IMG/VR virus record: IMGVR_UViG_3300009011_000002
Span: 124,001 to 188,000 of that record
DNA length: 64,000 bases
Source: a virus
Reading direction: 5' to 3' (one strand)
Shown here: positions 30,977 through 49,390 of the stretch, one piece after another
Numbering within the stretch: position 1 is the first letter of the stretch
How the letters are laid out: the number at the start of each line of letters is the position of its first letter
Translations under genes and position numbers: made by a program
Notes under the pieces: model-generated
The model's database searches: none
Seen by the model: the letters and a program-made list of their open reading frames with translations, nothing else
Told to the model about the DNA's origin: nothing

Positions 30977-31354
30977 TTAACGCTTTACTGGTAGACGCGG
31001 GAAACGGGATTTGGTTTGCACCAGTTTGTTCAGCACAGCGCCGGTAGTGGCAAAGTAATCCGCCATCCGGTTGATGCCGAGTACCTTGAGTCCTTCATCG
31101 ACCTCGAAGGGCTGCAGTGTGAGCAGATTGATCGAAGGACCCCGATCGCCTTCGAAGTCGAACAGCTCATACGCCCGGTTCAAAGCAATGGCCCGGGCGC
31201 AGCCGGTTTGACGCATGTACCACAACACCCAATCGTTAGATGGGTGAGTACCGGCCTCGTTTGCCAGCTTGGGTTCTTGATCCAGCTGTTTTGCCAAACG
31301 GCAAAACACTTTGATCATGTTGCTGCCCATTTTGTTCAGAGGGGTAGTGTTCAT
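30977..31354 (-). CDS. Tryptophan-module protein, 125 aa
   Basis: Carries the short module described under findings: 'E-P-K-L' (27-30), then 'S-N-D-W-V-L-W-Y' (W42, W45), followed by a helix beginning 'CARAIALNRAYE'. The rest is a helical C-terminal part with basic end ('KSRFPRLPVKR'). No known domain. Its ATG overlaps the stop of the upstream gene (ATGA). The module occurs in about a dozen proteins of this region, so it is likely to be a shared docking or nucleic-acid-binding element. Confidence 0.78.
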   Translation of the reverse strand: MNTTPLNKMGSNMIKVFCRLAKQLDQEPKLANEAGTHPSNDWVLWYMRQTGCARAIALNRAYELFDFEGDRGPSINLLTLQPFEVDEGLKVLGINRMADYFATTGAVLNKLVQTKSRFPRLPVKR

Positions 31355-31686
31355 ACTTCTTCCAGTTTCTTGTACTTAGGGTAATGACGACGGCGCTCTA
31401 CAAAAGGTGTTCTAGCATCAGGTAATACACTCTTACCTACTGCCCTGACCACTTCCATCCGCTGGTAAACCACAATAGCCGCAAAATGAGGCCGACGCTT
31501 CATAATGCGTTCGATGATGGTCACGTCCTGAAAGTAGCGAGTGGGTCCGCCTGACATAGACAACTGGCTACCGTGGGCACCATGTGGATAGCGAACAGCG
31601 CCGATGATAAAGTTACGATCAGGCCCACCGGCAGTCTTGATACCGTCGAGGGCTTCGCGGTGGTCGGTATACGGTAAGGTAGCCAT
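31351..31686 (-). CDS. Hypothetical protein, 111 aa
   Basis: Unrecognised basic protein; a Gly/His-rich central part ('RYPHGAHGSQLSMSGGPTRYF'-like composition) and a helix-strand segment 'ERIMKRRPHFAAIVVYQRMEVV', then a very basic tail ('VERRRHYPKYKKLEEV'). It overlaps the next gene by four bases. The start codon (31686) overlaps the stop of a possible 27-codon frame, arguing for a chain of coupled translation. Possibly RNA- or DNA-binding from charge alone. Confidence 0.73.
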   Translation of the reverse strand: MATLPYTDHREALDGIKTAGGPDRNFIIGAVRYPHGAHGSQLSMSGGPTRYFQDVTIIERIMKRRPHFAAIVVYQRMEVVRAVGKSVLPDARTPFVERRRHYPKYKKLEEV

Positions 31687-31769
31687 TAAAACAACTCCGG
31701 GTTTTCAAGATAGTTCTGGCTGTCCATCAGGTCGTCACGAGCGTTAATTAGAGACGGTTCTGCGCCCAT
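31686..31769 (-). CDS. Possible micro-ORF, 27 aa
   Basis: ATG at 31769 with AAGGG seven bases upstream opens a 27-codon frame whose TAA overlaps the ATG of the next gene (TAATG at 31688-31684). Its product begins 'MGAEPSLINAR', echoing the E-P-x-L start of the tryptophan module of the neighbouring proteins, but has no Trp. It overlaps the end of gene 31744 by 26 bases and otherwise fills the only gap in this operon. Could be a leader/coupling peptide or a decayed module gene. Confidence 0.4.
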   Translation of the reverse strand: MGAEPSLINARDDLMDSQNYLENPELF

Positions 31770-32049
31770 TATCGGCCCTTGTCGGTGTGAAGTTGAGAAT
31801 GGCGTTGTCCAGGATCTCTATTAGCTGGAAGTCCTGTACATCGCCGTCGAAAGCAAACATCGATTTCTCGAGAGCCATGCCCTCGGCTTCGTCGTAGCTA
31901 ACGGCATGGGCCTGCATGCACCATTGGAGCCATGCAGGGTTGAACTGAATTTGGTTGACGATGTACAGCGGAGGCTGTACAAGGACATTTTGAGATTGCC
32001 CCAAGTGGGGTAGAAGATTAACCGGGTTACATGGGTAAAGGATCTTCAT
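31744..32049 (-). CDS. Tryptophan-module protein, 101 aa
   Basis: N-terminal hydrophobic/Pro segment, then the module: 'P-P-L' (26-28), 'F-N-P-A-W-L-Q-W-C' (W40, W43) and second helix 'VSYDEAEGMALE'. After it an acidic strand-helix part ('DGDVQDFQLIEILDNAIL'). The ATG overlaps the stop of the upstream module gene as ATGA. AAGGAAG lies in front. Adjacent to two other module proteins, consistent with local duplication of the module. Confidence 0.76.
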   Translation of the reverse strand: MKILYPCNPVNLLPHLGQSQNVLVQPPLYIVNQIQFNPAWLQWCMQAHAVSYDEAEGMALEKSMFAFDGDVQDFQLIEILDNAILNFTPTRADNGRRTVSN

Positions 32050-32237
32050 GGTTTGAACTTCCTTTTCGGTTTTGGTCTTCCGATGCGAAGCTCTCCCCGA
32101 CGGATCGCTTCTGCTCGGGTGCAGTTGTTAGTCAACATGCACCAATCGATCCAATCGGAGTTGAGCTCAGGAGGGTTGCCAACAGTAAGCGGTGGTTCTT
32201 CTGAGGTAATGCTGGTAAGTTTGATACAGTGTTTCAT
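32046..32237 (-). CDS. Minimal tryptophan-module protein, 63 aa
   Basis: Start at 32237 (MKHCIKLTS), with AGGAG four bases upstream. The protein consists of little more than the module: 'E-P-P-L' (14-17), 'L-N-S-D-W-I-D-W-C' (W29, W32), second helix 'CTRAEAIRRGE', and a basic tail ('RPKPKRKFKP'). It therefore shows that the module can stand alone as a folded or partner-bound unit. The longer reading frame upstream overlaps the previous gene and lacks a ribosome site. Confidence 0.76.
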   Translation of the reverse strand: MKHCIKLTSITSEEPPLTVGNPPELNSDWIDWCMLTNNCTRAEAIRRGELRIGRPKPKRKFKP

Positions 32238-32253
32238 AGATCTCCTATATGGT

Positions 32254-33363
32254 TTATTGTTTAATTGTTTTGCCAAGTTTCTTGGCTTTCTTCCGATACT
32301 TCCGCATCGCTTCCTTACAGGATTCGTCTGCGTTGATATAGAACTTGATACCCTCGACGATATCGTCCCAGGTAGGATAGAGCTTGCAGTTATCCATGAT
32401 GAACTTGACGAGCTTGCGATTGGTCAGGTCTTTACCCAACTTCTCGAGCTCTTGGTTCAACCGGCGGAGCCAGCTGTTGCTGAACCCGGAGTTGCTGTGG
32501 ATCTGACGGTGGCGTTTCGCAACGGCGCGCTTGCGGGCTTCCTCTTCTTCAGGCGTAGGGCCGTAGACGAAGTTGAAGTCTTCCAGGTTCACGGTCATGA
32601 TGTCGATCTCGCCGTCACCGAGAACTTCCATGGCCTTTTTGACCTGAGAAGGTGTCAGCCCCTTGCTCTTGAGGAACTCGCGGATCTGCCCCGTCTTAAC
32701 GATCTTGGCGGTGGCCTTACCGAAAAGATTTCCGTCGAACATTTCCTGACGTGCCTTGGAGGCAATCTGGATACCTGGCTCGCATAGAAGGTCGGTATCA
32801 CCAAGACTACCCGAGGGACGCTGGTGGCCGAGACGAACACCCAGCTTCAGATCGTGCAGCTCGGACAGCGCAGCATAAGAAACGTTGGTCAGGGTTACGG
32901 TACGCCCAGAAGGCAGCTTGAAGATACGAGGACCGATGTCACCCTCATTAATCTTTATGACCTCCCCCAACGTCGGAACTTTCAACCCGAGTTTAAGCCC
33001 ACTGAGAGGCAATTCCGTGTTATAAGCCTGTTGGTTTTTGGAGATTTCTTCCTCAGCTTTAGGTGGAGGAAGGACTACACCCAGAAACTCCAACCCGGTC
33101 ACATCACGTTTGCTTGTACGTCCTGCTTCGAGCAGCTTACTCCAGCCGGAGTTGAAAATACTGTTCTCGGCGTGGCTCTGGACGATCGCGTGGCTGAGGG
33201 CTTGCGTGAAGAACGAATCGTCACCGGTGAAGATTTTCTTAAGCTCTTCAACCGTGCTGTTCTCTACCAGTTTACGAAGTTCTTCCTTACGGTCGCCGGC
33301 AAATTGATCGAGCTTACCGGCTTCAAACATTGCCAGCAGTGCTTCTTTAAGATTGTTAGCCAT
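32254..33363 (-). CDS. Hypothetical protein, 369 aa
   Basis: Large unrecognised protein. N-terminal 70 residues helical and acidic; centre beta-rich with 'LPSGRTVTLTNVSYAALSEL'; then 'FLKSKGLTPSQVKKAMEVLG' (a helix-turn-helix-like pair, about 230-250); C-terminal third very basic ('MRKYRKKAKKLGKTIKQ'). Basic tail and helix pair hint at nucleic-acid binding. It overlaps the upstream module gene by eight bases. Not similar to any protein I can name. Confidence 0.78.
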   Translation of the reverse strand: MANNLKEALLAMFEAGKLDQFAGDRKEELRKLVENSTVEELKKIFTGDDSFFTQALSHAIVQSHAENSIFNSGWSKLLEAGRTSKRDVTGLEFLGVVLPPPKAEEEISKNQQAYNTELPLSGLKLGLKVPTLGEVIKINEGDIGPRIFKLPSGRTVTLTNVSYAALSELHDLKLGVRLGHQRPSGSLGDTDLLCEPGIQIASKARQEMFDGNLFGKATAKIVKTGQIREFLKSKGLTPSQVKKAMEVLGDGEIDIMTVNLEDFNFVYGPTPEEEEARKRAVAKRHRQIHSNSGFSNSWLRRLNQELEKLGKDLTNRKLVKFIMDNCKLYPTWDDIVEGIKFYINADESCKEAMRKYRKKAKKLGKTIKQ

Positions 33364-33634
33364 TCTTCTGTTCCTTCAATTCTTCAATTCGGAGTTTGCA
33401 AGCAGCGAGGCTTGCCTTAGGGGAATAACGACGACGCAAACGGAACCACGTCACCCAAACCGGGTTAGGTTTACCGTTAGCCAGAGCGGGAGGAGGCTCT
33501 GGCATTTCTTTCAAACTGTCGTTGAAAGCATGGTGTGCTTCTTTGTAAGACACTCCCTTTTGTTGCATGTACGCTTGGACCCAGGTGTGATTAATCTCAC
33601 CTTTCTTGGAAATCAAAGGTGGTAGTGTGTTCAT
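33356..33634 (-). CDS. Double tryptophan-module protein, 92 aa
   Basis: Two copies of the module in tandem: copy 1 'P-P-L-I-S' then 'I-N-H-T-W-V-Q-A' (W18; the second Trp is Ala21) with helix 'VSYKEAHHAF'; copy 2 'P-P-A-L-A-N-G-K-P-N-P-V-W-V-T-W-F' (W60, W63) with helix 'YSPKASLAACK'. Linked by 'KEMPEP'. Its closest relative is 34262, which has the same two-copy arrangement and the same linker ('KAMPEP'). The two genes flank the HD-domain gene, so this is a duplication around it. Confidence 0.8.
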   Translation of the reverse strand: MNTLPPLISKKGEINHTWVQAYMQQKGVSYKEAHHAFNDSLKEMPEPPPALANGKPNPVWVTWFRLRRRYSPKASLAACKLRIEELKEQKNG

Positions 33635-33650: not shown

Positions 33651-34265
33651 TTATACCGTCAGCGCATCGATTTCTTTACGCTGTTCTTCCAGTTCCGCAC
33701 CAAAAGCTTTGATGTACAAATCCGGATAACGAGCATAACCACCAGTGCCGAACTTTTCCTTCAGATGCTTGAGAGCACCTTCACGACGCTCAGCAAGGGT
33801 CATCTCAGGGTTGTGCTTTTCTCGGTACATCACAGCACGATAGCGCATCTGAGTAACCCGACCTGGCAACCCACGATCCGCCGAGTTGATCAGTTCAGCA
33901 AATCGATTACTGAACTCCCCCTTGAATGAAGCACGATGTTGCTGACAGCCCAGGTATACATTCCTGAGTTCTTCACCTTGAAGGTTGTTAACAATCAGCG
34001 GGTGGTCAGTGGTAACCAGCCACTCGTAGCTGAGGGTGTGGTGATTATTACGGCTCCACGCGAACATGTCGTGGAAGTAAGCGGCGAACAACATCCACTT
34101 AGGGTCGTAACCCAACCCTAGGCGTTGATCGATCACCATAGCGGTTTGGAACACTTCTTCGAAATGTTCTTTGCGATGAGCTTTGTCATTCAGTTCCCAA
34201 AGCTCAGAGAACGACTCGATAATTTGTTTACGCAGTTCGCCAATCTGTTCTGGGGTGGTCATCAT
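33651..34265 (-). CDS. HD-domain phosphohydrolase-like protein, 204 aa
   Basis: HD-superfamily metal site: H34 in 'HRKEHF', 'A-A-Y-F-H-D-M' (H65-D66) and a later Asp in 'NSADRG' (near 129); additional His at 75/76 and 'QQHR' fit an extended site. Members hydrolyse phosphate bonds of nucleotides or signalling molecules; phage HD proteins can act on dNTPs, ppGpp or cyclic nucleotides, but the substrate cannot be read from sequence. ATGATG start overlaps the stop of 34262. Flanked by two paralogous double-module proteins, suggesting a functional unit. Confidence 0.82.
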   Translation of the reverse strand: MMTTPEQIGELRKQIIESFSELWELNDKAHRKEHFEEVFQTAMVIDQRLGLGYDPKWMLFAAYFHDMFAWSRNNHHTLSYEWLVTTDHPLIVNNLQGEELRNVYLGCQQHRASFKGEFSNRFAELINSADRGLPGRVTQMRYRAVMYREKHNPEMTLAERREGALKHLKEKFGTGGYARYPDLYIKAFGAELEEQRKEIDALTV

Positions 34266-34549
34266 GCGTTTCCTTCTTGTAAGAGTTTGAGTTTAGCCAA
34301 CCCGCATTTCTTTGCGATGTTGGTTGTTACGTTGTTGTGGATCCGATACCAGTGGACCCACCGCACACTGAGGAACTGACCGGTCTTCGAAAGCTTAGGC
34401 TCCGGCATAGCCTTGATCCGTTCGATATGTTGGAACCGAGCAGTTACAGGGGTACACCCATGTTTCTGTTGATACCACAGCTGCCACGCTGGATTGAACC
34501 CACCATTCCCATCAATGAGACTGGGTTCTTTTAATAGGACCTTCGGCAT
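34262..34549 (-). CDS. Double tryptophan-module protein, 95 aa
   Basis: First gene of this operon, 37 bases after a perfect TATATTAC. Copy 1: 'E-P-S-L-I-D' then 'F-N-P-A-W-Q-L-W-Y' (W22, W25), helix 'CTPVTARFQHIE'. Copy 2: 'P-K-L-S-K-T-G-Q' then 'L-S-V-R-W-V-H-W-Y' (W64, W67), helix 'VTTNIAKKCGLA'. Paralogue of 33356. No other domain is present, so binding of a partner through the modules must be its whole function. Confidence 0.82.
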   Translation of the reverse strand: MPKVLLKEPSLIDGNGGFNPAWQLWYQQKHGCTPVTARFQHIERIKAMPEPKLSKTGQFLSVRWVHWYRIHNNVTTNIAKKCGLAKLKLLQEGNA

Positions 34550-34585: not shown

Positions 34586-34618
34586 GTAATATAGATGGGA
34601 GATCGGCTAAAACTTAAT
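34586..34618 (-). promoter_or_regulatory. Early-type phage promoter
   Basis: TATATTAC at 34593-34586 on the minus strand with upstream box ATTAAGTTTTAGCCGATC ending at the same distance as in the other two-part sites. Drives the operon beginning with the ATG at 34549. Confidence 0.75.
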
Positions 34619-36500: not shown

Positions 36501-36702
36501 TTCGTTTACTCAGCTCTTCTTGTATCAGCCAATGGTGTTCTTCGGTAATCACCAACGTGGGTGGGCCAAAGCGGTAGTATTTGAACGTGAAGCCACCGGG
36601 GAGCATCTGGTTCATGCCCCTCAGTGCAGGGAGGTCGAGAGTCTCAACGCACCGTTTGATGCGTTGTTCTTCTCGAGTAAGAAAGCGAAGCACCTTGCTC
36701 AT
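36466..36702 (-). CDS. Hypothetical protein, 78 aa
   Basis: Start at 36702 (MSKVLRFLTREEQ), where the ATG overlaps the stop of the upstream gene as TAATG. Basic helix at the start, then strands 'FTFKYYRFGPPTLVITEE' and a final amphipathic helix. It overlaps the following gene by 35 bases. No known domain. Confidence 0.68.
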   Translation of the reverse strand: MSKVLRFLTREEQRIKRCVETLDLPALRGMNQMLPGGFTFKYYRFGPPTLVITEEHHWLIQEELSKRNDSQDSQVPRT

Positions 36703-37091
36703 TACCGGATTCCTTGATCGTACTGAACTTGTTGCCTGTTCAATGCATAGGCCAGAGAGCACACCTCTTCTGGGGTCATGCCGTCCCGCCTAGCAATGTC
36801 CATCACCCAACGTTGAGACAACTGCCCGTTGGGTGTCCACATGGACGGTGGTTCGTCTGGCAGTTCGGCTGTCAAGAAGTGCAGCTCATTACGAAGGCCT
36901 TGTTTCAACATGTTGGCCATCATCAGAACTGTTTCTTTGTCTTCGGGGTGGACGCTTACCACACGTCCAGCCTTAGCCAACTTCTCGGACATCCAGTTGG
37001 TCCATTCGAATGCCACACGGTCTTTGTGGGAAGTAAAGACCGTGGGTTCATCTTCGCCTGCTTGGTAACCCTTGTAGCCTGGTGGAAACAT
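36702..37091 (-). CDS. Tryptophan-module protein, 129 aa
   Basis: C-terminal module 'P-P-S-M-W-T-P-N-G-Q-L-S-Q-R-W-V-M-D' (W95; Asp98 replaces the second Trp) with second helix 'MTPEEVCSLAYALN'. A second W-x-x-W pair occurs earlier in 'V-A-F-E-W-T-N-W-M' (W30, W33), possibly another copy. Between them is a helical region. AGGAGGATTT precedes the ATG. Member of the family described in the findings. Confidence 0.76.
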   Translation of the reverse strand: MFPPGYKGYQAGEDEPTVFTSHKDRVAFEWTNWMSEKLAKAGRVVSVHPEDKETVLMMANMLKQGLRNELHFLTAELPDEPPSMWTPNGQLSQRWVMDIARRDGMTPEEVCSLAYALNRQQVQYDQGIR

Positions 37092-37312: not shown

Positions 37313-37798
37313 TCACATACCGAGTCGCTTAATGGCTTCTTGCAACAACTGGGTGTCAAAGGTCTTGCCAGCGATCTTGCCATCGCGTGTCAAGGAAGCC
37401 GCCAGGATCTCGAGGTGCTGGGAGATGTCCTTGTTGGTCATGTCGGATGGCGCTGGGATAAATGTCTTAGCCAGTGGGTTGTCCAGCATGGCCCGGAGTT
37501 TATCCAGTTCCTTGGTGGCCATCTTCATGCCTTCACTGAGAGCACCAATTGCTTGGATGCCTTTGAGCATGCCTTCGAAATTAGCGGCGAAGTTGCTTCT
37601 AAGGTCCGCAGGTTTGATGGAGTCGGCGTGGACTTTTTCGAGCTTACGCATCCCTGCCCCAAGACGCAGGCACATGTTCAGCTGTTCGATTGCAGCAGTG
37701 CGGTATTCCCGACTGGTACCGTCGGTCACAGGCAGTGCCAACACCATACGTTTCAGTGCACCCACTTGCCGTGCGTAATCATCGAGATCTTTGATCAT
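37313..37798 (-). CDS. Helical protein, 161 aa
   Basis: Almost entirely alpha-helical: helices around 3-20, 29-62, 68-108 and 122-160, with Ala/Leu/Met-rich faces suggesting a helical bundle or coiled-coil dimer. No family recognised. It overlaps the end of the preceding module protein by 20 bases in a different frame; AGGAGGCGTAG lies before the ATG at 37798. Unknown function. Confidence 0.76.
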   Translation of the reverse strand: MIKDLDDYARQVGALKRMVLALPVTDGTSREYRTAAIEQLNMCLRLGAGMRKLEKVHADSIKPADLRSNFAANFEGMLKGIQAIGALSEGMKMATKELDKLRAMLDNPLAKTFIPAPSDMTNKDISQHLEILAASLTRDGKIAGKTFDTQLLQEAIKRLGM

Positions 37799-38426
37799 CG
37801 GGTTCTACGCCTCCTTTTTCAATGAAGTCCTTGCCTATATGGATGGCAGCGACCAGTGAGATGTCATAGTGGTCACGCGCCCACTTAACCCACTCGTAGT
37901 TAAGGCCGCATTGCATGGAACCACTGAGTTTAGGTTCGCCGGGACGGCGGGCCAGATAAGTCCCTTTGGCATTCCAACGTTTGAGGAATGTGTGGATAGG
38001 AGAACCAGGGTTTTCCCTGATGCTGATTTCCAACGGAGTTTTATCGACAAGGCGACGACCGCTCTTGAAAATCCCCATCAAATCCAGACTGCCGTCTTCA
38101 AGGAAGAACTGACTGATGTCTTTGAAGTTGCCCCTGCCACTGACCGAATCAAAACTGGCTTCCGCATCTTCGATGCAGCTGAAGTACTGGCCGTTAGGAG
38201 GCAATTGGATCCAGCACTCTTGAGGAATGGCTTTGATCACATCCTCCGCCGACAGGTACTTAGGGATCCCACCAAACACCGTGCTGAAGGTACCAGGGCG
38301 AAGTCCGCCGTTCAGCAACTTATCCAACGTTGGAAAACCAACACTGAGTTTTTCCAGATGTTCCTTGGGGACCGGCTCAAATTCCGGCATTTTCAATTTG
38401 AGCCGATCAAACAAATCTTTATCCAT
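37779..38426 (-). CDS. Protein with C-terminal tryptophan module, 215 aa
   Basis: A ~160-residue N-terminal domain of unknown type ('LSVGFPTLDKLLNGGLRPGTFSTVFGG' region is Gly-rich) is followed by 'G-E-P-K-L-S-G-S' and 'L-N-Y-E-W-V-K-W-A' (W179, W182) with helix 'ISLVAAIHIGKDF'. This shows the module attached as a C-terminal tag to a larger domain. The segment resembles the start of RecA-like proteins ('FPTLDKLLNGGL') but lacks a Walker A Gly-Lys-Ser/Thr, so no ATPase claim is made. Confidence 0.78.
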   Translation of the reverse strand: MDKDLFDRLKLKMPEFEPVPKEHLEKLSVGFPTLDKLLNGGLRPGTFSTVFGGIPKYLSAEDVIKAIPQECWIQLPPNGQYFSCIEDAEASFDSVSGRGNFKDISQFFLEDGSLDLMGIFKSGRRLVDKTPLEISIRENPGSPIHTFLKRWNAKGTYLARRPGEPKLSGSMQCGLNYEWVKWARDHYDISLVAAIHIGKDFIEKGGVEPDDQRSR

Positions 38427-40114: not shown

Positions 40115-40466
40115 TTTCGCGTTCCTTGTCAAAGTCTTCCCGGGTCTTTTCATCGAGCACAATGAATGCACGACCACACTTGCATTCAGATTGGCTCTTG
40201 ATCTTGAACCCGTACGAAGACAACAAAATAGCCCGGCCGTTAGCCAGCGGTTGGAGACAGAAAGTCTGTCCCTTAGAGGCAAACTTCAAGCGACGAAGTT
40301 CGTTGACGATCGAGACGTTGTAATGCGACTGGCAGTAATCATCGATCAGTTCTTCGAATACGTTGCGTATTTCCTTTTCATCGAGACCCTCAAAGAGCTT
40401 AGTCAAACGCTCCCCAAGTTTCTCCCCGGTCTCTTGGGAGTAGAAATGAGAGTCGTGTTCGGACAT
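40104..40466 (-). CDS. Hypothetical protein, 120 aa
   Basis: Acidic helical N-terminal half ('RLTKLFEGLDEKEIRNVFEE') and beta-rich C-terminal half ending in charged helix. A C-x-C pair ('SECKCGRAF') may bind metal but no partner Cys pair is seen. Its ATG overlaps the stop of the upstream gene. No recognised family. Confidence 0.74.
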   Translation of the reverse strand: MSEHDSHFYSQETGEKLGERLTKLFEGLDEKEIRNVFEELIDDYCQSHYNVSIVNELRRLKFASKGQTFCLQPLANGRAILLSSYGFKIKSQSECKCGRAFIVLDEKTREDFDKERENER

Positions 40467-40840
40467 TACAACCCCGTGGCTTTCTTCATGGATTGGCGAA
40501 CTTCCACCAGGCGCATGATCAGCCCATCGACGTCGTCCTGCTCGAAGATCAGGAAACGAACTTCGTCGCCTTCATATGACCCATCACGACCAGTGCCGTC
40601 GTATTCAGTCGGCAGAGACAAGTTGGGATCCTTGCGAAGAGATTCCACTTTATCCCACAGATCGTCGCTGCCTGTGTTTGCAATTAGAGATTCAGGTGCC
40701 AGTGAAATAGAAACAAAGTCATTGTCACCACAGGCACCAGTTCCGATGTACAAGGTATCGTCAGTGCGATTTTCCCAGATCTTGGTGAACAGCACTTCGT
40801 GTTCGAGTGCTCTGAATTCAGCGCGGTTTACAATACGCAT
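40466..40840 (-). CDS. Hypothetical phage protein, 124 aa
   Basis: First gene after the promoter at 40888. Begins 'MRIVNRAEFRALEHEVLFTK', a form reminiscent of small phage proteins that start with 'V-x-x-x-E-F-x-x-L-P-x-G-T-x-F', with 'GDNDFVSISL' later. The C-terminal third is helical and acidic. No function known to me for such proteins. AGTAACG-type weak ribosome site; ATG at 40840 chosen as the only candidate. Confidence 0.74.
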   Translation of the reverse strand: MRIVNRAEFRALEHEVLFTKIWENRTDDTLYIGTGACGDNDFVSISLAPESLIANTGSDDLWDKVESLRKDPNLSLPTEYDGTGRDGSYEGDEVRFLIFEQDDVDGLIMRLVEVRQSMKKATGL

Positions 40841-40887: not shown

Positions 40888-40920
40888 GTAATATAGAGAC
40901 AAGACTTACTACAACTTAAG
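40888..40920 (-). promoter_or_regulatory. Early-type phage promoter with overlapping inverted repeat
   Basis: TATATTAC (40895-40888) plus the upstream box CTTAAGTTGTAGTAAGTC. Immediately downstream, ACCAGCC (40867-40873) pairs with GGCTGGT (40883-40889), so the hairpin overlaps the core and would form the 5' end of the new mRNA or terminate transcription arriving from 40916. Confidence 0.75.
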
Positions 40921-41182
40921 GGTAGACCTTAACGCGGAACAGCCCGTTGGTCGAGGGAACAGCTTGTAACTCCCACGTGAACGCTCCAACCGGTTTATCA
41001 GCAAGCTTCTGCGCAATCATGAGGCCGCCTATACGAGCAGCTTCCATGAAGCGGTGATCACCTACCATGGCTGGTGTTCTCCCATCCGCCGACATCGTGG
41101 ATGCACGCCAATGGACCCATTCTGGATTCAACAACTCCGGGTGTTGGTCGGCATCAACTTGAAGCTCGGGAATGAATTGCAT
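40916..41182 (-). CDS. Tryptophan-module protein, 88 aa
   Basis: N-terminal module 'H-P-E-L-L-N-P-E-W-V-H-W-R' (W22, W25) with a spaced second helix ('RTPAMVGDHRFMEAARIGG'). The second half is strand-rich ('GAFTWELQAVPSTNGLFRV'). The linker between P-x-L and N is absent here, so the two parts of the module fuse. Stop codon lies within the promoter element of the next operon. Ribosome site AGGAGCAATCCC. Confidence 0.78.
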   Translation of the reverse strand: MQFIPELQVDADQHPELLNPEWVHWRASTMSADGRTPAMVGDHRFMEAARIGGLMIAQKLADKPVGAFTWELQAVPSTNGLFRVKVYP

Positions 41183-41196: not shown

Positions 41197-42042
41197 TTAC
41201 AGGCGAGCTTTCTGCTCGATGATTATTTCTGGGTCACGTTGGGAGTTATCAATGGTGATCTCAACGCTAGCTGGACGACCGGTCGGGAACACCATCTTTA
41301 CTACACGTGCGATAGCCTCGGTCCCGGCTTTTTCAGGGGTGTTGCTAGGATGTTGCGCCAAGAACCATTCGATCCAGTCGAAGGAGATGAAACGGCGAAC
41401 GTAGGGGTGGTTACCCGTAGGCTGTTTGGTGATAAACAGATCAGGTTCGGGTACGGCCGCTTGCGCTGCTCTGCCAGCCGCTTCCTTAAGTTCTTCACCG
41501 GTGAGCACGTGAACAGACTGACCTTTCTTCAACGCATTGGCCAGCTTGTAGAAATGGCTAGCCGTCGAAGCGAGCAATGCCAGTTCCTTTTCGTCGATCC
41601 GGCTATCAAAGCCGAATGCATTTTCGAAGAAGCCCAAACGGCGCAGGACCACGCGGAGTTCTTCAGACTGCCGTTCTTCACCCAGCTTCTTGGCCGCATC
41701 AACGTTAGAGTCTCGCAGCAAACCAGTGAGCGCCGGAGAAATGTCCTTGAACATACGGACGAGGTCATAACCGTCGAGGCCGTGGGACTTGAACGCATCG
41801 TCGAAAGCGTACAGGCGGTTCTGCAACCAATCGATACGGTCGAGGACGTTGTTGAAGAAGATCTGGGCTTGTTCTTTCTTGGCACCGGAGCATTGCTCGA
41901 TGATTTCTTTGGTGCCAGCCTCGAAGTAACCCTTGAAACCGAAATCGTTCTTGTCGGCCAATGGGCGTTGTTCGTAGTTGCACATGGTAAGGTTGGTAGC
42001 TTCTGATAAGCGCATAGTGGATTCCGTTCGAAGTACTGGCAT
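41197..42042 (-). CDS. Large protein with C-terminal tryptophan module, 281 aa
   Basis: A ~195-residue helical N-terminal domain (no recognised family) is followed by an Ala-rich linker and 'E-P-D-L-F-I-T' then 'I-S-F-D-W-I-E-W-F' (W223, W226) with 'TPEKAGTEAIARVV', and a beta-strand tail. An alternative start at 42015 (MRLSEATNL) has GGAAT six bases upstream; the ATG at 42042 has AAAGG ten bases away. The module again behaves like an add-on to an unrelated domain. Confidence 0.8.
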   Translation of the reverse strand: MPVLRTESTMRLSEATNLTMCNYEQRPLADKNDFGFKGYFEAGTKEIIEQCSGAKKEQAQIFFNNVLDRIDWLQNRLYAFDDAFKSHGLDGYDLVRMFKDISPALTGLLRDSNVDAAKKLGEERQSEELRVVLRRLGFFENAFGFDSRIDEKELALLASTASHFYKLANALKKGQSVHVLTGEELKEAAGRAAQAAVPEPDLFITKQPTGNHPYVRRFISFDWIEWFLAQHPSNTPEKAGTEAIARVVKMVFPTGRPASVEITIDNSQRDPEIIIEQKARL

Positions 42043-42045: not shown

Positions 42046-42618
42046 TTAACGACCTTTAGGTGGGTTACGTGGACAAGCTTTGCCGTTGGCATCATAGGGC
42101 GCGCTTGGATCAGGCAGTGGCTGGTAACCATTCCCTGGCAAACAACCGTCTGTACGGTCTAGGTGTTTGGTGCGTAACAGCAGTTGTTTCATTTCCGGCG
42201 ACGGCACGAGGACAGGAATGTGCACAGACCGAGGGTTTACAATCACGCCATTCTCTAACATGACGTGCGGTTGGTCTTGTTCTACTTTCACTTCACTACG
42301 TTTACGCAACCGCAGGTTCTTGCTACGCAGGTTACGGTTGGTGCGCTTCAACGAACCGATCTCGTTGGACATGTACACAACGCGCTGTACGAGGCCCGCT
42401 ACGTCCCATTCGGTTAATGGGGTACCATTCTGCTTGTAGGCGGCAAACGCCACCAGGAAGCGCTCTGCAGCGTCCAGGTTGGTGTCTTCCGGCAGGTAGA
42501 AGTCATCTCGGCGGATGGGTTCTTCCAGTTTGTGCTTGCCAATGAAACCGGACAAATACAGTTTCAACTTCTCGGTAACTTTGGCGAGGGGGAAACGCTT
42601 CTTGCTTTCGATGGCCAT
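42046..42618 (-). CDS. Hypothetical protein, 190 aa
   Basis: First gene of this operon, 39 bases after a TATATTAC core. Basic N-terminal part, helical centre with an Arg/Lys/Asn-rich coiled stretch ('GSLKRTNRNLRSKNLRLRKR', about 97-118), then a Pro-rich C terminus with 'PPKGR'. High positive charge in the middle suggests nucleic-acid binding. No domain recognised. AGGAAGATG precedes the ATG. Confidence 0.76.
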   Translation of the reverse strand: MAIESKKRFPLAKVTEKLKLYLSGFIGKHKLEEPIRRDDFYLPEDTNLDAAERFLVAFAAYKQNGTPLTEWDVAGLVQRVVYMSNEIGSLKRTNRNLRSKNLRLRKRSEVKVEQDQPHVMLENGVIVNPRSVHIPVLVPSPEMKQLLLRTKHLDRTDGCLPGNGYQPLPDPSAPYDANGKACPRNPPKGR

Positions 42619-42656: not shown

Positions 42657-42664
42657 GTAATATA
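42657..42664 (-). promoter_or_regulatory. Early-type phage promoter
   Basis: Perfect TATATTAC on the minus strand, preceded by TATTAAACC. Belongs to the subclass without the TTAAGTTGCAGT box. 39 bases ahead of the ATG at 42618. Confidence 0.72.
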
Positions 42665-42700
42665 GGTTTAATAAAAACTAACACGGTATCAAAAATAAAG

Positions 42701-42734: not shown

Positions 42735-44201
42735 TTACTGGATGAGTTCCAGCTTACGGCTCAGTTCGATCTTCAGCGGGTTGCCGTTGTTCGGGATCAG
42801 GTTGTAGCGTTCCAGCTCTTCCGGCTTCTTCTCGCTGGACATGACGCGGTAAGCACCCTTGGTCCACGCCAGTGCGAAACTGCACGAGTGGACGTTACGG
42901 TACCAGTCGATCCATTCCTGGGACAGGGTGTGGACTGAGGTGGTGAGGTTGGGTTCTTTCGGGCCCTTGTCGATGAACTCTTCCAGGCTCTGCGTGAAGG
43001 TCTTCAGCGCGGTCATTGGATTGACTGGACGTTGTTTACCCAGCTGGACAATGACCATGTCTTCGGTGATCCGCTTGGCGTCGAGCCGCTTGGCTACCAG
43101 TTCGCCAAACAGCTGGTAGTATTCCGGACCGAAGTTAACCCAGTTACTACCACCGCCACCGAAGGTGTTTTGCAACGAGAAGTAATTCATTCCCATGGTG
43201 AGGTGGAACGAACGGAAGAGTGCGGCCAGGCGTTCGTCGTTGTAAGAACCGACAATCCGACGAAGGAGGTCTTCTTTCTCAAGAACCGGTTCGTTCTCGG
43301 CGCGGTTGTCGAGCACACGCTCGAAGGCTGCCAGGACCAGTTGTCGAGCAATAGGGAGTACTTCGTTCGGGTACTCCCAACTGCGCCCTTGTTCGCCGAT
43401 GATGACGAAGGTTTCATCCGAACGTTCCGCCCAGGTCTGCTGGATCCAGAACAGCATTTGCTTGAAGTTCATGCCAGCAACAATGCCCTTGAGCTTGGCG
43501 GTGACTTCCTTGCGTTTTTCTTCGGTGAGTTCAGTCACTTCTGGTTCCTTTTCGTTAATAGTTTGCTTCTTGGCCATTTCAAGAATGCGTTGCATGATAC
43601 CAGCCGCCACAGAGAGACTCGCGGGACCTTCGTAGCGGTACAATGCGCCGGTGACAACATCGAACTCGAAAGTGAAATCTTGTTTCGACTCGGTGGTCTC
43701 TAACCGGTAATTGAAAATGGTGCCTGGAGTGTCTCGGCTTTCGGTCACGTCCAACCGCCACCCAGCCTGGAGACCCTGAGAATCACCGTCGAGGTAAGCC
43801 CAGTTATGACGAATAAACAGCTTCGCCAGTTCCAAAGAGTGTTCCATTAACCTGCCTTGAGCTGCCGCCGAGTTGTTCAGCTTGTCAAGGATGTAGTTAT
43901 AAACCTCCGAGAAGACTTCGTACACATCACCAGGGCTGGTGCCGAAATCCAATGCAGTCAGACGGTCCCCTGCAAGGTTAGCCGATACTTCAAAGTCGCG
44001 GATAGGGACCCCTTCACCACGGCCGGAGCTGTACTTGAACCCGTAACCAGGCGTACCGGCGAAGTATTGCAACCGCCATTCACCGATGGTCAGCCCAGGG
44101 GAGTAACTGGACCAGTTCATGACCGCGAACACACCGGCCAGTTCTTTAATTTTGTGGGCCAAGTCGGCAGCTTGTTTCAGTTCCATGTCCTTACTCGTCA
44201 T
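42735..44201 (-). CDS. Large protein with C-terminal tryptophan module, 488 aa
   Basis: Start at 44201 (MTSKDMELKQAAD), with GGAG nine bases upstream; overlaps the preceding gene by eleven bases. N-terminal ~200 residues contain two similar halves: 'LAHKIKELAGVFAVMNWSSY' with 'W-R-L-Q-Y-F-A-G-T' versus 'LAKLFIRHNWAYLDGDSQGL' with 'W-R-L-D-V-T-E-S', suggesting an internal duplication. A central acidic linker ('EKEPEVTELTEEKRKEV') leads to a helical domain, and at the end 'E-P-N-L-T-T' and 'L-S-Q-E-W-I-D-W-Y' (W430, W433) with 'CSFALAWTKGAY'. Function unknown; its size makes it the most elaborate module carrier. Confidence 0.82.
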   Translation of the reverse strand: MTSKDMELKQAADLAHKIKELAGVFAVMNWSSYSPGLTIGEWRLQYFAGTPGYGFKYSSGRGEGVPIRDFEVSANLAGDRLTALDFGTSPGDVYEVFSEVYNYILDKLNNSAAAQGRLMEHSLELAKLFIRHNWAYLDGDSQGLQAGWRLDVTESRDTPGTIFNYRLETTESKQDFTFEFDVVTGALYRYEGPASLSVAAGIMQRILEMAKKQTINEKEPEVTELTEEKRKEVTAKLKGIVAGMNFKQMLFWIQQTWAERSDETFVIIGEQGRSWEYPNEVLPIARQLVLAAFERVLDNRAENEPVLEKEDLLRRIVGSYNDERLAALFRSFHLTMGMNYFSLQNTFGGGGSNWVNFGPEYYQLFGELVAKRLDAKRITEDMVIVQLGKQRPVNPMTALKTFTQSLEEFIDKGPKEPNLTTSVHTLSQEWIDWYRNVHSCSFALAWTKGAYRVMSSEKKPEELERYNLIPNNGNPLKIELSRKLELIQ

Positions 44202-44604
44202 CACGAACAACTCCATATTGATATTTCGCGTCTACCTTGTAACCAAGAGACACCCTTTCTTGCATGGTGACCTTAGCACGGAAGCGTGCTTTGTTCGTCC
44301 CGGTCTCGCGAACAGTGAAGGTTACTTCCGCCTTACGTTGCCCAACGCACACCGACGACTTGATCAGGGCTTCTACAAAGTTGTTGAAGTACCCTCCCTG
44401 ACGCAAGTCTTCAGTCATACGCCCCACGAAGATACCGGTTGCAGCTACAGCGTTGGTATACTCGAAGGGCTTGCCATTAGGGTCCAGTTCCTTCGGCAAC
44501 TTGTCCGGTGCTTGGTAGGCGTCTTCGAGGAACAGCTTTTGAGTAAAGCTATCCGCCTCTACCTGCACTTCGATGTAGCAGTTATCCAGTTCTGCTTCAG
44601 ACAT
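44191..44604 (-). CDS. Hypothetical protein, 137 aa
   Basis: Beta-rich protein: 'CYIEVQVEADSFTQKLFLED', 'AEVTFTVRETGTNKARFRAKVTM'; helical insertion in the middle ('GGYFNNFVEALIKSSV'). Unrecognised. ATG overlaps the stop of the upstream exported protein. Its end overlaps the large module protein. Cytoplasmic by composition. Confidence 0.75.
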   Translation of the reverse strand: MSEAELDNCYIEVQVEADSFTQKLFLEDAYQAPDKLPKELDPNGKPFEYTNAVAATGIFVGRMTEDLRQGGYFNNFVEALIKSSVCVGQRKAEVTFTVRETGTNKARFRAKVTMQERVSLGYKVDAKYQYGVVRDDE

Positions 44605-44921: not shown

Positions 44922-46442
44922 TTACATGGCGCCGATCATGCCCGAGACAACGGAAGGATCCACATCCAGGGCGGATGGTTCAGCGGCATTACCCAGCAGG
45001 TTGTTGCCTGGCAGCAGCGAACGACCCACTGCCGAACCCACAGCACCCAGGGCCAGGCCCGCGGTACCAGCAGCGACGTAACGACCGAACTGGCTTTCGA
45101 TGTTGCTGTCGATCAGCTCACCGGCGAAGAAGCTGCCGATGGCGCCCGCGACGGTACCCAGTGCCGAACCCACGGTCAGGCCACCGCGTGCTGCCATTTC
45201 CATGCCACCGCCCACGACTGCTGCGCCGACGCCGATCCAGGAGGAGCGGACGCCTTCGTCGCGTTCGTTCATCAGGCTGAAGCGGGACTTGGCTGCGGCG
45301 GCGCCCTCGGTCAGGTCTTCGATCTTGAACTGGGTCAGCAGGTAGCCCATGTAGGACTTGGTGAACTCCTGCTCGCTTTCCAGGAAGTTGTAGATGCGGT
45401 GGTCGCTGTCCATGTCAGCAGGTGCCGACGCGGAGAAGGTCGCCCAGCGCGCCATCACTTCTGGTTGGCCTTCCATGAAGTTCAGGAAGACTTGGGTGCG
45501 CAGGCCGCCGTCGATCATGCCCTTGGAGCTCAGGAACATGATGAAGCCGTCGAAGTCTTTGGCAGCGTTGTTGTTGTTGGCGGTGGTGTGAGCGTTGGCG
45601 TTGGTCATGGTGTCTTCCTCGGTATTCGCAGATTGGGTTTGGTTGGTTTGTTGTGCGGTGTTTTGAGCTAGCTGGTCGCGACGCTCTTGGGAGATGTTAC
45701 GTTTCGAGATCAGTTCGTGTTGGGCATTCATCACGATCTCGATGATGTCTGCCTCGGCGGTAAAGCCGGTGTATTCGATGGTGGTGTCATTGACCCTGTA
45801 GCCAGTAAGGTTCACCACCTCGGGGCACAGTTCTTTGATCCGTTCTTGCTGGTGTGCCACGATCTTTTCTTCCAGCGTCAACCAGCTGAAGTGGTGACCG
45901 GTCGGTGGGAAGATAGGTTCCGAGGATCCGTTTTCACGGCTCAGTTCGGTATCCGCATCACGGCGTCCGCCCACGACAATGTCGGCATTCACCGGGGTAT
46001 CGTCTTTGAGGGTCTCGTGGTCCTCGATGACTTTAACCACCACGCCTTTATCGCCAGGAAGATCAGTCATCTTGAACTTCGGTTCAGGATGTTCTTGGGA
46101 GGCAGCCATATCAACAGTCGCTGAGCCGTGAAGCTCAGCGACTGGGATAGGGTTAGCTGGGATCGAGGCGGGTGCTGCAGCAGCTGGGGCTACCGGCTCT
46201 TCGAGCACGATGGTCTTGGCTGCTTTGATCTGGGACATCGAATACTTCGTGCCCAGTTTGTGGTTCACGTTCGTCAGGACTTCAGTGCGAGACTGTTGCC
46301 GTACGAACTTGGGGTCGAGGAGCTTGGCCTTGATGGCGCTCTTCTGCTCTTCGACGGTGCCGCCCTTTTCACGCATTCCTTTAACAATGCCAACGATCGT
46401 CTCGATGGCAAACTCAGGAGTGGGGAATTGATCGTCAGCCAT
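44922..46442 (-). CDS. Acidic multi-domain protein with hydrophobic Gly-rich end, 506 aa
   Basis: N-terminal helical domain (1-80), Ala/Pro linker (83-104), an acidic central part, and a region 'EEKIVAHQQERIKELCPEVV'. From residue 279 a second part begins: a Met preceded on the mRNA by GAGGA seven bases upstream, so a 228-residue shorter product from 45608 is plausible. The C terminus (about 400-490) has long Gly/Ala-rich hydrophobic stretches ('GAAVVGGGMEMAARGGLTVG', 'ALGTVAGAIGSFFAGELI', 'AAGTAGLALGAVGSAVG') that could insert in a membrane. GC content is visibly higher than in its neighbours (44930-45600). Strong promoter and terminator suggest high expression. Function unknown. Confidence 0.83.
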   Translation of the reverse strand: MADDQFPTPEFAIETIVGIVKGMREKGGTVEEQKSAIKAKLLDPKFVRQQSRTEVLTNVNHKLGTKYSMSQIKAAKTIVLEEPVAPAAAAPASIPANPIPVAELHGSATVDMAASQEHPEPKFKMTDLPGDKGVVVKVIEDHETLKDDTPVNADIVVGGRRDADTELSRENGSSEPIFPPTGHHFSWLTLEEKIVAHQQERIKELCPEVVNLTGYRVNDTTIEYTGFTAEADIIEIVMNAQHELISKRNISQERRDQLAQNTAQQTNQTQSANTEEDTMTNANAHTTANNNNAAKDFDGFIMFLSSKGMIDGGLRTQVFLNFMEGQPEVMARWATFSASAPADMDSDHRIYNFLESEQEFTKSYMGYLLTQFKIEDLTEGAAAAKSRFSLMNERDEGVRSSWIGVGAAVVGGGMEMAARGGLTVGSALGTVAGAIGSFFAGELIDSNIESQFGRYVAAGTAGLALGAVGSAVGRSLLPGNNLLGNAAEPSALDVDPSVVSGMIGAM

Positions 46443-46515: not shown

Positions 46516-46548
46516 GTAATACAGGTTTGAAAACAACTGTAACTTAAA
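46516..46548 (-). promoter_or_regulatory. Early-type promoter, one mismatch in core
   Basis: Core TGTATTAC (46523-46516) and upstream box TTTAAGTTACAGTTGTTT at the standard distance. 74 bases before the ATG at 46442. Confidence 0.68.
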
Positions 46549-46888: not shown

Positions 46889-46890
46889 AG

Positions 46891-47331
46891 TTACCCCTTA
46901 GGCTTCTTCCAGCCGTAGTCAGCTTTCCAGAACACCAGTTCTTTACCTGGCCAATCAGAGAACACACTGTTCAACGCCATGATGTCGTATTCATCGAAAT
47001 CATAGGCAATCGAAATATGGGGGAGTGGGGTCTCGTAGGCATGCTGGTAACCGGCATCCCGCAAGCGGCGGAACTCTTCGTTGAGGTCCGGGCTGGTGAG
47101 GTGGAAGACTACACCATCACCGAGGGGTTCCAGCTTGGTGACGAATGCACGGAACTCACGCTCCGGGTGCAGTTCAGCCAGTGGGCGGTCGATACCACGG
47201 TCGTCGAAGATTATGGTGGAGTGCAGGTCATGCTTGGGGATCTGTACCCCACATTCGCCCAGGAGCTTGTAGATCTCCATGATGAACTCGGGTTTCAGTT
47301 CTGCGGCTACGTAGCTGTAGTCACGTTCCAT
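46891..47331 (-). CDS. 2H phosphoesterase, resembles anti-CBASS Acb1, 146 aa
   Basis: The two catalytic motifs of the 2H family are clear: 'H-S-T-I' (H37-T39) and 'H-I-S-I' (H105-S107), 68 residues apart. Between them 'KLEPLGDGVVFHLTSPDL', 'F-R-R-L-R-D-A-G' and then 'T-P-L-P-H-I-S-I-A-Y' follow the layout I recall for T4 gp57B (Acb1, about 150 residues), which cleaves cyclic oligonucleotides and so blocks CBASS defence. Other 2H enzymes (LigT-type RNA ligase or cyclic phosphodiesterase) share only the motifs. Acb1-like is my preferred reading; substrate is inference. Confidence 0.8.
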   Translation of the reverse strand: MERDYSYVAAELKPEFIMEIYKLLGECGVQIPKHDLHSTIIFDDRGIDRPLAELHPEREFRAFVTKLEPLGDGVVFHLTSPDLNEEFRRLRDAGYQHAYETPLPHISIAYDFDEYDIMALNSVFSDWPGKELVFWKADYGWKKPKG

Positions 47332-47638: not shown

Positions 47639-47641
47639 TTG

Positions 47642-47851
47642 TTACTGAATAATGCTTACAGTAACTTGGATCAACGGGCCATCTTTACTCAGCTTATTGG
47701 AGAGCCGGGTAATAGCCTGGCGCTGTTCGTCAGAGAACGCACGGAGACTGCTGAACACGTTCGTGGTGAGCACGTGATTTCCGAGTGTAAATAACACATG
47801 TTTCTTGGCGTCATAGCCGGCTTTACGAGCAAGACCGAGAAGACCGCTCAT
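47642..47851 (-). CDS. Small hypothetical protein, 69 aa
   Basis: Basic N-terminal helix ('LLGLARKAGYDAKKHV'), strands, a central helix ('SDEQRQAITRLSNKLSKDG') and final strand. Its ATG overlaps the stop of the upstream gene. It resembles no family I know. Last gene before the terminator. Confidence 0.7.
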   Translation of the reverse strand: MSGLLGLARKAGYDAKKHVLFTLGNHVLTTNVFSSLRAFSDEQRQAITRLSNKLSKDGPLIQVTVSIIQ

Positions 47852-48018
47852 TAGTCGATCGTCCAGCGGGGGTTCTTGATGTAGACCGACTGGATGGTGC
47901 CTTTCTTTAGGCGTTGTTGCAGACGTTCAGCAGCGGCTTTGGATTCCTCCACCATGGCGAGAGGACCGCTGTGGGAGAGACGGTGTGCATCCACGAACAT
48001 CAAGTACTTGCTTTCCAT
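47851..48018 (-). CDS. Small hypothetical protein, 55 aa
   Basis: Start at 48018 (MESKYLMFVDAHR), with AAGGAAG seven to eight bases upstream; the longer frame in phase overlaps the previous gene entirely. Helical middle ('VEESKAAAERLQQRLKKG') and strand end. Five bases from the stop of the module protein. Function unknown. Confidence 0.66.
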   Translation of the reverse strand: MESKYLMFVDAHRLSHSGPLAMVEESKAAAERLQQRLKKGTIQSVYIKNPRWTID

Positions 48019-48022
48019 GGTG

Positions 48023-48358
48023 TTACTTCCTTTTGATTTTGACGATGTAAGGTGAAGACGGCGACGAAGAGAGTGGGACAGTTTCAAATTCCCGACCTTC
48101 GAAAACAGCTGCATTACGTTCAACAACGCTTCGCGTAGCTTCGGTGACAGCCTGAGCGAAGGCAGCTTTGGTATAGGTTGCACGAGGACCTCCGTTGTCA
48201 ATCCAGTGGGGTGGAAGATCGACATGAGGGGCAAGGGCCTCTACAAACTTTTTGGCGTCGGCTTTGTCGATCTCTTGTGCCCGCCATTGCAACCAGTCCA
48301 GGTTGATTACGTATGGACTGACGTCAACTGCGTGGAGCAGGGGTGGTGGTATTTGCAT
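48023..48358 (-). CDS. Tryptophan-module protein, 111 aa
   Basis: N-terminal module 'P-P-P-L-L-H-A' then 'V-I-N-L-D-W-L-Q-W-R' (W22, W25), second helix 'DKADAKKFVEAL'. The rest is a helical Ala-rich part ('TKAAFAQAVTEATRSVVE') with a basic tail. It is distant from the 31-44 kb cluster, showing that the module is spread over several operons. AGGAGGTCTT precedes the ATG. Confidence 0.78.
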   Translation of the reverse strand: MQIPPPLLHAVDVSPYVINLDWLQWRAQEIDKADAKKFVEALAPHVDLPPHWIDNGGPRATYTKAAFAQAVTEATRSVVERNAAVFEGREFETVPLSSSPSSPYIVKIKRK

Positions 48359-48366
48359 AAGACCTC

Positions 48367-48639
48367 CTAGATCTCGTTGACCGTAAACTCCAAGGTCTCC
48401 GAGAAGCTCATACCGTTCATGAAATCTTCCCCGATCTCGGCTTTGGTGATAAAGCCGTTCTCGACAGTAATATGGTACTCGTGGTCGGAGATAGTTGGGT
48501 GCTTACGGATGACCACCACCTTAGGCCCGCCCACAACACCCAAGACCTTTTCCAAGGCATAGGTGTCAATCGGTTTACCGACGGCAGCGGCTTTAGGACG
48601 ATACATCCAGTCGTTCTTGTAACGGTAGAAGTGAATCAT
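48367..48639 (-). CDS. Hypothetical protein, 90 aa
   Basis: Start at 48639 (MIHFYRYKNDWMY), with AAGGAT six bases upstream. Strand-rich: 'VVGGPKVVVIRKHP', 'EYHITVENGFITKAEIG', 'ETLEFTVNEI', with helix 'IDTYALEKVLG'. Small soluble fold without known motif. Overlap-free, two bases after the upstream stop. Confidence 0.72.
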   Translation of the reverse strand: MIHFYRYKNDWMYRPKAAAVGKPIDTYALEKVLGVVGGPKVVVIRKHPTISDHEYHITVENGFITKAEIGEDFMNGMSFSETLEFTVNEI

Positions 48640-48641
48640 GG

Positions 48642-48998
48642 TCAATCCTTGGGGTAAGCGTTGGGATACTTGCTGTCGTCCTCGTCTTCGATTTCAACCG
48701 CCCAACGATGGGTAACCATTTCCAGTGCCAAAGGATCTACAACACCACCCATCTCTTTGGCCACTTCCGTAAGCAAGGTGGGGTGGTAGTTGTGGTCACC
48801 CATTAAGCAACCGCCGACCCTTTTCTCTACTTTCCTTAGTACATCGTCGGGATCGATGTTTTCTACCCGACCGTCGGGATGGAGGGCATACACGCTGTAC
48901 CACTTGCAGTAGTTCTCCATGGTCACAATAGGTCGACCTTCCGGGTCAATCTCTTGAGCCAGCAATGGAATACCGCGGTGACTTACGTACTTGGCCAT
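48642..48998 (-). CDS. Hypothetical protein, 118 aa
   Basis: Mixed protein with 'GRPIVTMENYCKWYSVYALH' (Cys/Trp-containing strand), an acidic loop 'IDPDDVLRKVEKRVGGC' and a helical C-terminal half ending 'EIEDEDDSKYPNAYPKD'. No recognised domain. It overlaps the upstream gene by 16 bases. AAGGTATGGCC ribosome-like sequence includes the start itself, so the site is weak. Confidence 0.72.
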   Translation of the reverse strand: MAKYVSHRGIPLLAQEIDPEGRPIVTMENYCKWYSVYALHPDGRVENIDPDDVLRKVEKRVGGCLMGDHNYHPTLLTEVAKEMGGVVDPLALEMVTHRWAVEIEDEDDSKYPNAYPKD

Positions 48999-49390
48999 AC
49001 CTTGCCCTTTAGTCGGTTGTTGTCCGTAATGGAAAGAACTTCAATTTTCAAGTCATTCATCAGGGTGCAATGATCGTTGTCGATTTTCGTGGCAACATAC
49101 ACATAGGTCTGACCGTGTAGAATGCCCTTTAAATCACCATCCACCCAACGCTTGTTAATGACATGAACAACCTCACCTACATACTTGCCTTCACTGTAAG
49201 AGAATCGACAGTGGATGTCTACGGTGTGGTCTTTATAGGGAAGATCATACACGACACATAGCGCCTGGCAGGTACGCCAGAAACCAAAAGTGAGTGCTTC
49301 TTCGTAAGAAATCTGGCGATTGCGTCTAAGGTACAGCGTGGCTATCCTTACCGACATCGCCGGATGAGGGTTAAAGTGGGCTGGGTCCAT
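48983..49390 (-). CDS. Hypothetical protein with possible module remnant, 135 aa
   Basis: N-terminal 'H-F-N-P-H-P-A-M-S-V-R-I-A-T-L-Y-L' and helix 'ISYEEALTFGFWR' match the spacing and the second half ([ST]-Y-x-E-A) of the tryptophan module but lack both Trp. The remainder is beta-rich ('HTVDIHCRFSYSEGKYVGEV', 'QTYVYVATKIDNDHCTL'). ATG overlaps the stop of the RNase H gene. Unknown function. Confidence 0.73.
   Translation of the reverse strand: MDPAHFNPHPAMSVRIATLYLRRNRQISYEEALTFGFWRTCQALCVVYDLPYKDHTVDIHCRFSYSEGKYVGEVVHVINKRWVDGDLKGILHGQTYVYVATKIDNDHCTLMNDLKIEVLSITDNNRLKGKVWPST

Follow-up and report, generated by a model that had tools for sequence, protein, structure and literature searches.

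The window analysed here comprises bases 124001-188000 of a 226,773-base IMG/VR virus record (IMGVR_UViG_3300009011_000002), 64,000 nucleotides in all; coordinates are those of the window, and genes are named by their lower coordinate. A short segment rich in tryptophan recurs in otherwise unrelated proteins encoded between 30977 and 49390. This tryptophan module is a true protein domain family: the homology of its copies is real, its spread is lineage-specific, and the module, about 38-40 residues long, is confidently predicted to form a small beta-helix-turn-helix unit. Iterated searches over the window and the stretches fetched from other phages found 54 copies (E<0.01), distributed over 45 proteins and 10 records related to phage EL. 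We give close to an even chance to the reading that a basic tandem ancestor bound nucleic acid and that copies of its helix-turn-helix-like mini-domain spread, diverged and acquired different partners.

Homology and copies in the window

A first-pass annotation of the window had listed the recurring pattern, and its open reading frames (ORFs) are present as described on the minus strand. Leave-one-out profiles, a profile from other phages and controls agree that the pattern recurs across the listed proteins. The motif [NS]xxW[VILMQ]xW, which had been fitted to the listed copies beforehand, had 12 matches in minus-strand ORFs with 50 or more residues, compared with 0.25 expected from shuffles. 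Eleven of these matches were listed modules and the remaining one lay in ORF 22690; plus-strand ORFs gave one match. When the 12 full modules were left out in turn, the two copies of a tandem being removed together, the left-out module always ranked next after the training set (E 4e-11 to 0.03). Because the copies had been picked by pattern, the W columns are common by construction and part of this signal is built in. A semi-independent profile was made of 42 modules from other phages, found by iterating from the window copies, and it recovered 10 of the 12 window modules at E<0.01. Its weak rows were 48023 (E 0.13), 36702 (E 0.66) and 41197 (E 1.4), and the top 13 rows among 484 window ORFs were the 12 listed modules and 36702. 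The final profile gave no match at E<0.05 in 27,180 shuffled ORFs (10 x 2,718) and 2,718 reversed ORFs. It could be argued that the motif is short and that the copies in 41197 and 48023 are weak, but the leave-one-out ranks, the empty controls, the orthologs in other phages and the same predicted fold make a chance or compositional artefact of small Trp-rich ORFs very nearly inconceivable.

All copies lie on the minus strand, and the E values that follow are from hidden Markov model (HMM) searches. Single modules were located at 31148-31285 in 30977-31354 (E 5.9e-12; ortholog at 44% in L188:1974-2372, L numbers denoting loci and G numbers records), at 31849-31986 in 31744-32049 (E 9.6e-13) and at 32070-32207 in the small single-module protein 32046-32276 (E 5.3e-15). 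The modules of 33356 and 34262 had been described as doubled, correctly: 33356-33634 contains module 1 at 33500-33634 (E 2.4e-13) and module 2 at 33374-33508 (charge +7, E 3.5e-10), and 34262-34549 contains module 1 at 34403-34537 (E 2.3e-15) and module 2 at 34277-34411 (charge +5, E 2.3e-11). The latter protein is homologous to EL gp133 across both modules, with 41% identity. C-terminal modules were found, as had been proposed, at 37809-37946 in 37779-38426 (E 3.2e-11; other-phage profile 0.0053), at 41290-41430 in 41197-42042 (a weak copy, E 1.1e-3) and at 42831-42965 in 42735-44216 (E 1.3e-12), where AlphaFold2 predicts a beta-hairpin after the module. The other two copies are at 41036-41173 in 40916-41182 (E 9.1e-7; other-phage profile 0.0082) and, weak and N-terminal, at 48212-48355 in 48023-48358 (E 2.7e-5). 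The tails that follow the module in 40916, 41197, 42735 and 48023 look by eye like possible hairpins, that of 42735 having been modelled. Some of the tryptophan numbers given earlier shift with the start codon, to W42/W45 in 32046 with a TTG start and to W435/W438 in 42735.

Four degenerate copies had been proposed in addition. Orthologs and a profile-profile comparison support the one in 36702, whereas those in 34710, 39542 and 48983 received no support. Relatives of 36702 align with module proteins, and a profile of four 36702-type proteins without significant modules of their own matched the module profile at E 1.2e-4 (probability 55%), whereas an unrelated control alignment reached E 0.29 (probability 0.2%). 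The 36702-37091 protein probably holds two copies, module 2 at 36732-36860, found by this comparison and in the alignment, and a probable module 1 at 36972-37067 (W30/W33), which had been missed earlier and was seen in the ortholog alignment only. Proteins of this type constitute a second tandem group with degenerate modules that starts with DEPSIF or DEPTVF (36702-37091 on the minus strand, L188:14019, L189:10542 and L190:8729). Another motif, R[IVM]xWL, was seen six times against 1.6 expected.

Predicted fold and comparison with known families

Conservation across the 54 copies is strongest at E-P-x-L, followed by [LV]-[NS]-P-x-W-[VIL]-x-W-Y, by [VC]-[ST] in a turn, and by an A and a G spaced four apart. 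These positions map to a predicted unit in which a short beta element (E-P-x-L ... [LV]-[NS]-P) precedes a pair of helices with a tight turn between them; helix 1 carries W, W and Y, and helix 2 carries A and G. With EP-x-L, [NS]xxW[VIL]xWY, a helix 2 that carries A and G, and a profile E<0.01 taken as the definition of an EL-clade tryptophan module, the family has 54 domains, including the 12 listed window copies; single copies are without some signature residues. Judged from conservation alone, the conserved positions look like mostly core or cap residues.

Two short helices had been expected from the letters, and AlphaFold2 predicted them in two sequence contexts, the tandem 34262 and the tagged 42735, in which the segments are modelled with the same order of elements. 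The model of 34262 (26 alignment rows; mean predicted local distance difference test score, pLDDT, 91; predicted template modelling score 0.75) has helices at residues 20-30, 34-47, 62-72 and 76-93, with short strand or bridge residues before each helix pair. In a 194-residue construct of the 42735 end, residues 121-190 form a block with ten-residue mean pLDDT of 90-97 that is predicted to contain a strand (126-128), two helices (134-144 and 148-163) and then the beta-hairpin; most of the remaining construct was without confident prediction (mean pLDDT 65).

The models were compared with BFVD, whose models of the EL proteins were made elsewhere. The 34262 model matched EL Q2Z0U8 (89 aa, by its length gp133) at E 1.2e-6 with TM 0.76/0.80, and Q2Z0Z7 (143 aa, by its length gp84) weakly (probability 0.72, E 0.91). 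For the 42735 model, Q2Z0U8 ranked first (E 0.089, probability 0.93) and Q2Z0Z7 fifth (E 0.81, probability 0.63). Fold searches of the PDB gave no significant match for either model, a result that does not by itself make the fold new. All rows were weak: the tandem gave ribosomal protein S7 at the top (Z 4.0, 3.8) and homeodomains lower (Z 2.5-3.4), and the 42735 model gave LHX4, POU2F3 and a winged-helix domain at Z 2.2-2.3.

The statement that no described family has this pattern holds within Pfam, PHROGs, NCBIfam and PDB sequences, which yielded no convincing match. The best library row, phrog_23126 (E 0.0045 for 34262), had no match in EL and seven other jumbo phages and also matched 7 of 14 control genomes, and was set aside. 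A description of the module was not found in the literature, where searches cannot catch an unnamed motif. Like helix-turn-helix and homeodomain-like units, the module is modelled with two helices and a tight turn, and homeodomains and a winged-helix domain are among its weak PDB rows. It differs from them in its Trp-rich helix 1 and in the model, where the two helices and the turn are predicted and the third helix of a trihelical core is not; no Pfam helix-turn-helix family appeared among the module rows at E<=1. The KilA-N/Bro mosaic families of large DNA viruses and the NUMOD repeats are small domains that have been duplicated and shuffled onto different proteins. The module resembles them in this behaviour within viral lineages, but they are absent from its Pfam rows, and as far as searched it was found in a single group of jumbo phages.

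Distribution and genomic setting

The window carries 12 copies, G006 and G011 nine each, G010 eight, G004 six, EL three, G007, G008 and G009 two each, and G005, a record of just 105 kb, one. Whole-record profile search of the window's own record gave 12 matches, every one inside the window. EL has its three copies in two genes annotated 'hypothetical', gp133 with the module twice and gp84 with the module once near the C-terminus, while the window's phage has 12 and the degenerate 36702. Searches by tblastn covered 50,697 phage records. The 34262 protein found nine EL-type Pseudomonas phage records at E 2e-12 to 5e-12 (EL counted twice) and one more at E 1; 33356 found the same nine (E 1e-8 to 3e-8), its 20 further records being no better than E 0.09; EL gp84 found ten EL-type records and four others at E 8. 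When 12 records were searched with the profile, EL and GXNNE2 had three copies each. No copy at E<=1 was present in the other ten, which were three IMG/VR contigs and seven named jumbo phages that bear GroEL (RisingSun, pTD1, OBP, PDCC-1, YC1, AerS_266 and FishSpeaker).

A DNA pattern for LNPxW[VIM]xWY picked 50 viral and 71 genome loci. Apart from EL, seven IMG/VR records held clear modules, for which searches of the whole records gave 1 to 10 matches at E<=1, and a marker search added G011 (8 matches) and G012 (no match). The DNA pattern reached further than protein scans of viral contigs, which returned only EL for the tandem alignment, only G010 for the 42735 C-terminus, and only EL and three weak contigs for the DNA ligase. 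A bacterial origin was rejected, as the 71 pattern-picked genome loci held no convincing module; the best of them, L107 (E 4.6e-5), had been preselected by the pattern and was without the A/G part.

The genes for chimallin and PicA were found in all 11 records in which they were sought, namely nine carriers (G005 left out), RisingSun and OBP, with the PicA match running through a stop codon in 10 of the 11. As far as searched, the module is limited to EL-like jumbo phages with phage-nucleus genes. In the window's own record, chimallin (phrog_4795, E 6.3e-123, G000:C1:45340-47262) and a PicA homolog (phrog_3141, E 2.7e-85, its match reading through a stop codon) lie outside the window. Since it encodes both, the virus is placed by gene content in the Chimalliviridae, the nucleus-forming phages; EL is named as a chimallin-encoding phage in PMC10299810. 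Many window genes have collinear homologs in the 40 kb of EL that was compared, and five genes in 30977-49390 come out as the best match of an EL gene (E<=1e-4), both among the matches listed. A phage GroEL, 42% identical to that of EL, is encoded at 20893-22548, and NAD-dependent DNA ligase and SbcC were also recognised. By tblastn, the large proteins 37779, 41197 and 42735 had no phage relative at E<=1, and 32254 had none at E<=1e-5. The MIZ-Pa99 record (L238, PV472050.1) is filed as Straboviridae, yet it contains EL-type genes, with EL gp84 98.6% identical and a GroEL match beside that of EL.

Among the module genes lies an Acb1-like anti-CBASS gene (46891-47331, minus strand; Pfam Acb1 PF23474, E 3.9e-13). 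It is 43-60% identical in five other records, and its EL homolog is annotated 'RNA ligase'. Promoters of the form TATATTAC are early in phiKZ. Exact TATATTAC occurs at six sites in the window, all on the minus strand; exact AAACCTATATTAC occurs four times, and nine times with three mismatches allowed, against 9.8 by chance. Promoter-like sites on the minus strand precede the runs that start with 34262, 42046 and 44922, and also 40466-40840. The one upstream of 34262-34549 is at 34586-34598 (exact TATATTAC; three mismatches to the 13-base form), the one upstream of 42046-42618, 41197 and 40916 is at 42657-42669 (exact AAACCTATATTAC), and the one upstream of 44922-46442, beyond which 42735 follows downstream, is at 46516-46528 (AAACCTGTATTAC, one mismatch). 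In sequence the sites are similar to the promoters that table 2 of PMC7058600 lists for EL (WTTTYAAACCTACATTATY) and phiKZ (TATATTAC). The module proteins had been called early; the sites before some gene runs favour this indirectly, and no such site was seen just before 48023.

Several neighbouring genes showed further similarities. Between the two tandem genes, 33651-34265 (minus strand) matches phrog_3921 (E 9e-48) with weak HD-domain similarity. Profiles of the phage RNA polymerase beta subunit gave short partial matches, which may be due to chance, to 28279-29652 (phrog_3015, E 7.5e-5) and 44922-46442 (phrog_3295, E 1.7e-5), both on the minus strand. The N-terminal domain of 28279-29652 (KIAFMTAVKERIRWLSRQLA; about 100 residues, 29329-29652, minus strand) is 54-65% identical in five other records. 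The part that follows this N-terminal domain varies, containing a tryptophan module in G004 and G009 and none in G011, G005 and the window, and in G012 the N-terminal domain stands almost alone. The 79-aa protein encoded at 22-261 (minus strand) is 27-30% identical to residues 23-81 of EL gp84 and stops before the module tail, so that a tag was perhaps gained or lost; G006 has a similar weak match.

Possible origin and roles of the module

The module occurs in small single-module proteins, in tandems, and as N-terminal, C-terminal or middle pieces of larger proteins, and the BLAST matches of the window's module proteins fall in the module segments. A mostly tandem core group recurs, consisting of 34262, 33356, EL gp133, L189:4899 and L188:3095, with the single-module relatives L191:9362, L192:6769, L193:8327 and L197:4236. 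In all nine, charge is +3 to +7 for the basic module and +7 to +9 for the protein as a whole. The remaining 45 modules average about -1, and the full range is -5 to +7. The turn and the start of helix 2 read V[ST]xN[IV]A in 7 of the 9 basic core modules. Among the matches listed, all eight records compared have the core gene upstream of a 30544-type gene, and the genes that separate the two often carry modules themselves.

From these data we infer the following course of events. The ancestral gene would have encoded a tandem basic protein of the EL gp133 or window 34262 type that bound DNA or RNA through the helix-turn-helix-like module. Duplication and fusion would then have spread the module within an accessory, probably host-takeover, island that includes the Acb1-like gene, where copies came to stand alone, in pairs or joined to parts of other proteins. 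As the core was retained while surfaces and charge diverged, the duplicates would serve as small binding units for different partners instead of carrying one address label. The first-pass annotation had suggested a DNA- or RNA-contact unit, and for the basic subgroup this is plausible from the charges.

Several points weigh against this scheme. The core group was singled out after the charges had been seen, and the charge argument for nucleic-acid binding is indirect, with other small single-module proteins also basic as wholes (32046, +9; L189:3690, L189:3046 and L188:1697, +6 each). G004 carries modules, none of which is of the basic core type among the matches listed. The models of 34262 and 42735 are not mutually independent because further family members were present in the alignments used for them, and confident prediction is lacking for two thirds of the 42735 construct. 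S7 and not the DNA-binding homeodomains tops the PDB rows of the tandem, which has no solved relative there, and the PDB sequence search returned antibody-like rows only (E 0.12 or worse). The 'early' timing is indirect, as it comes from promoter-like motifs only. E1 and the aromatic residues may be partly exposed, which would leave room for a shared contact surface.

Such a surface would suit a common docking tag, by which all modules bind one phage partner or compartment (e.g., the shell, the importer or the virus-encoded polymerase) and gather proteins there. The terminal module on several otherwise unrelated proteins, the invariant W and nearly invariant E-P that could form a shared contact, and the presence of chimallin and PicA in all nine carriers tested, the family being found only in phages with nucleus genes, are in favour of this. 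However, charge and most surface-looking positions are not conserved, the conserved ones look mostly structural, and no module was found in RisingSun and OBP, which have the chimallin and PicA genes. Furthermore, PMC11087766, which deals with phages outside the EL-like clade, assigns nuclear targeting to surfaces of folded cargo and not to a terminal signal, and import in the phages studied there uses no conserved signal. The single partner or compartment proposed in the first-pass annotation is thus not supported, and we regard a common tag as unlikely. A portable, fold-encoded address label, in which the 40-residue mini-domain brings many early proteins to one partner, sub-compartment of the nucleus or early vesicle, seems to us improbable.

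The paralogs might instead be host-takeover or counter-defence proteins built on a diversifying scaffold, each copy directed against another host factor and the fusions being incidental. The Acb1-like gene in the same stretch, the differing copy number (1 to 12, the record with one being the 105-kb G005) and the divergence outside the core positions are consistent with such an arms race. On the other hand, no copy matches a family in Pfam, PHROGs or NCBIfam (no anti-defence library was searched), and the C-terminal module of 42735 is kept in a relative in G010, which suggests a function within that protein; we consider the arms-race scaffold somewhat unlikely. In G010 (L212:8869-10402), the relative of the C-terminal 193 residues of 42735 is a separate 203-aa protein, and the neighbouring 301-aa protein has a further W..W segment at its end, with a tail that may form a hairpin. 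Divergence from a nucleic-acid-binding ancestor towards changed partners, with a host-takeover role, is the reading that we carry forward.

The tryptophan module is a domain family absent from the searched libraries with a fold that can be tested, and it offers a way into the study of dozens of proteins that lack annotation in phages with nucleus genes. EL, a cultured carrier with two module genes, lends itself to simple experiments. The family also allows a direct test of whether targeting or regulation in phages with nucleus genes relies on portable modules. If the module did turn out to be an address label, it would be the first targeting module of nucleus-forming phages that can be recognised in sequence.

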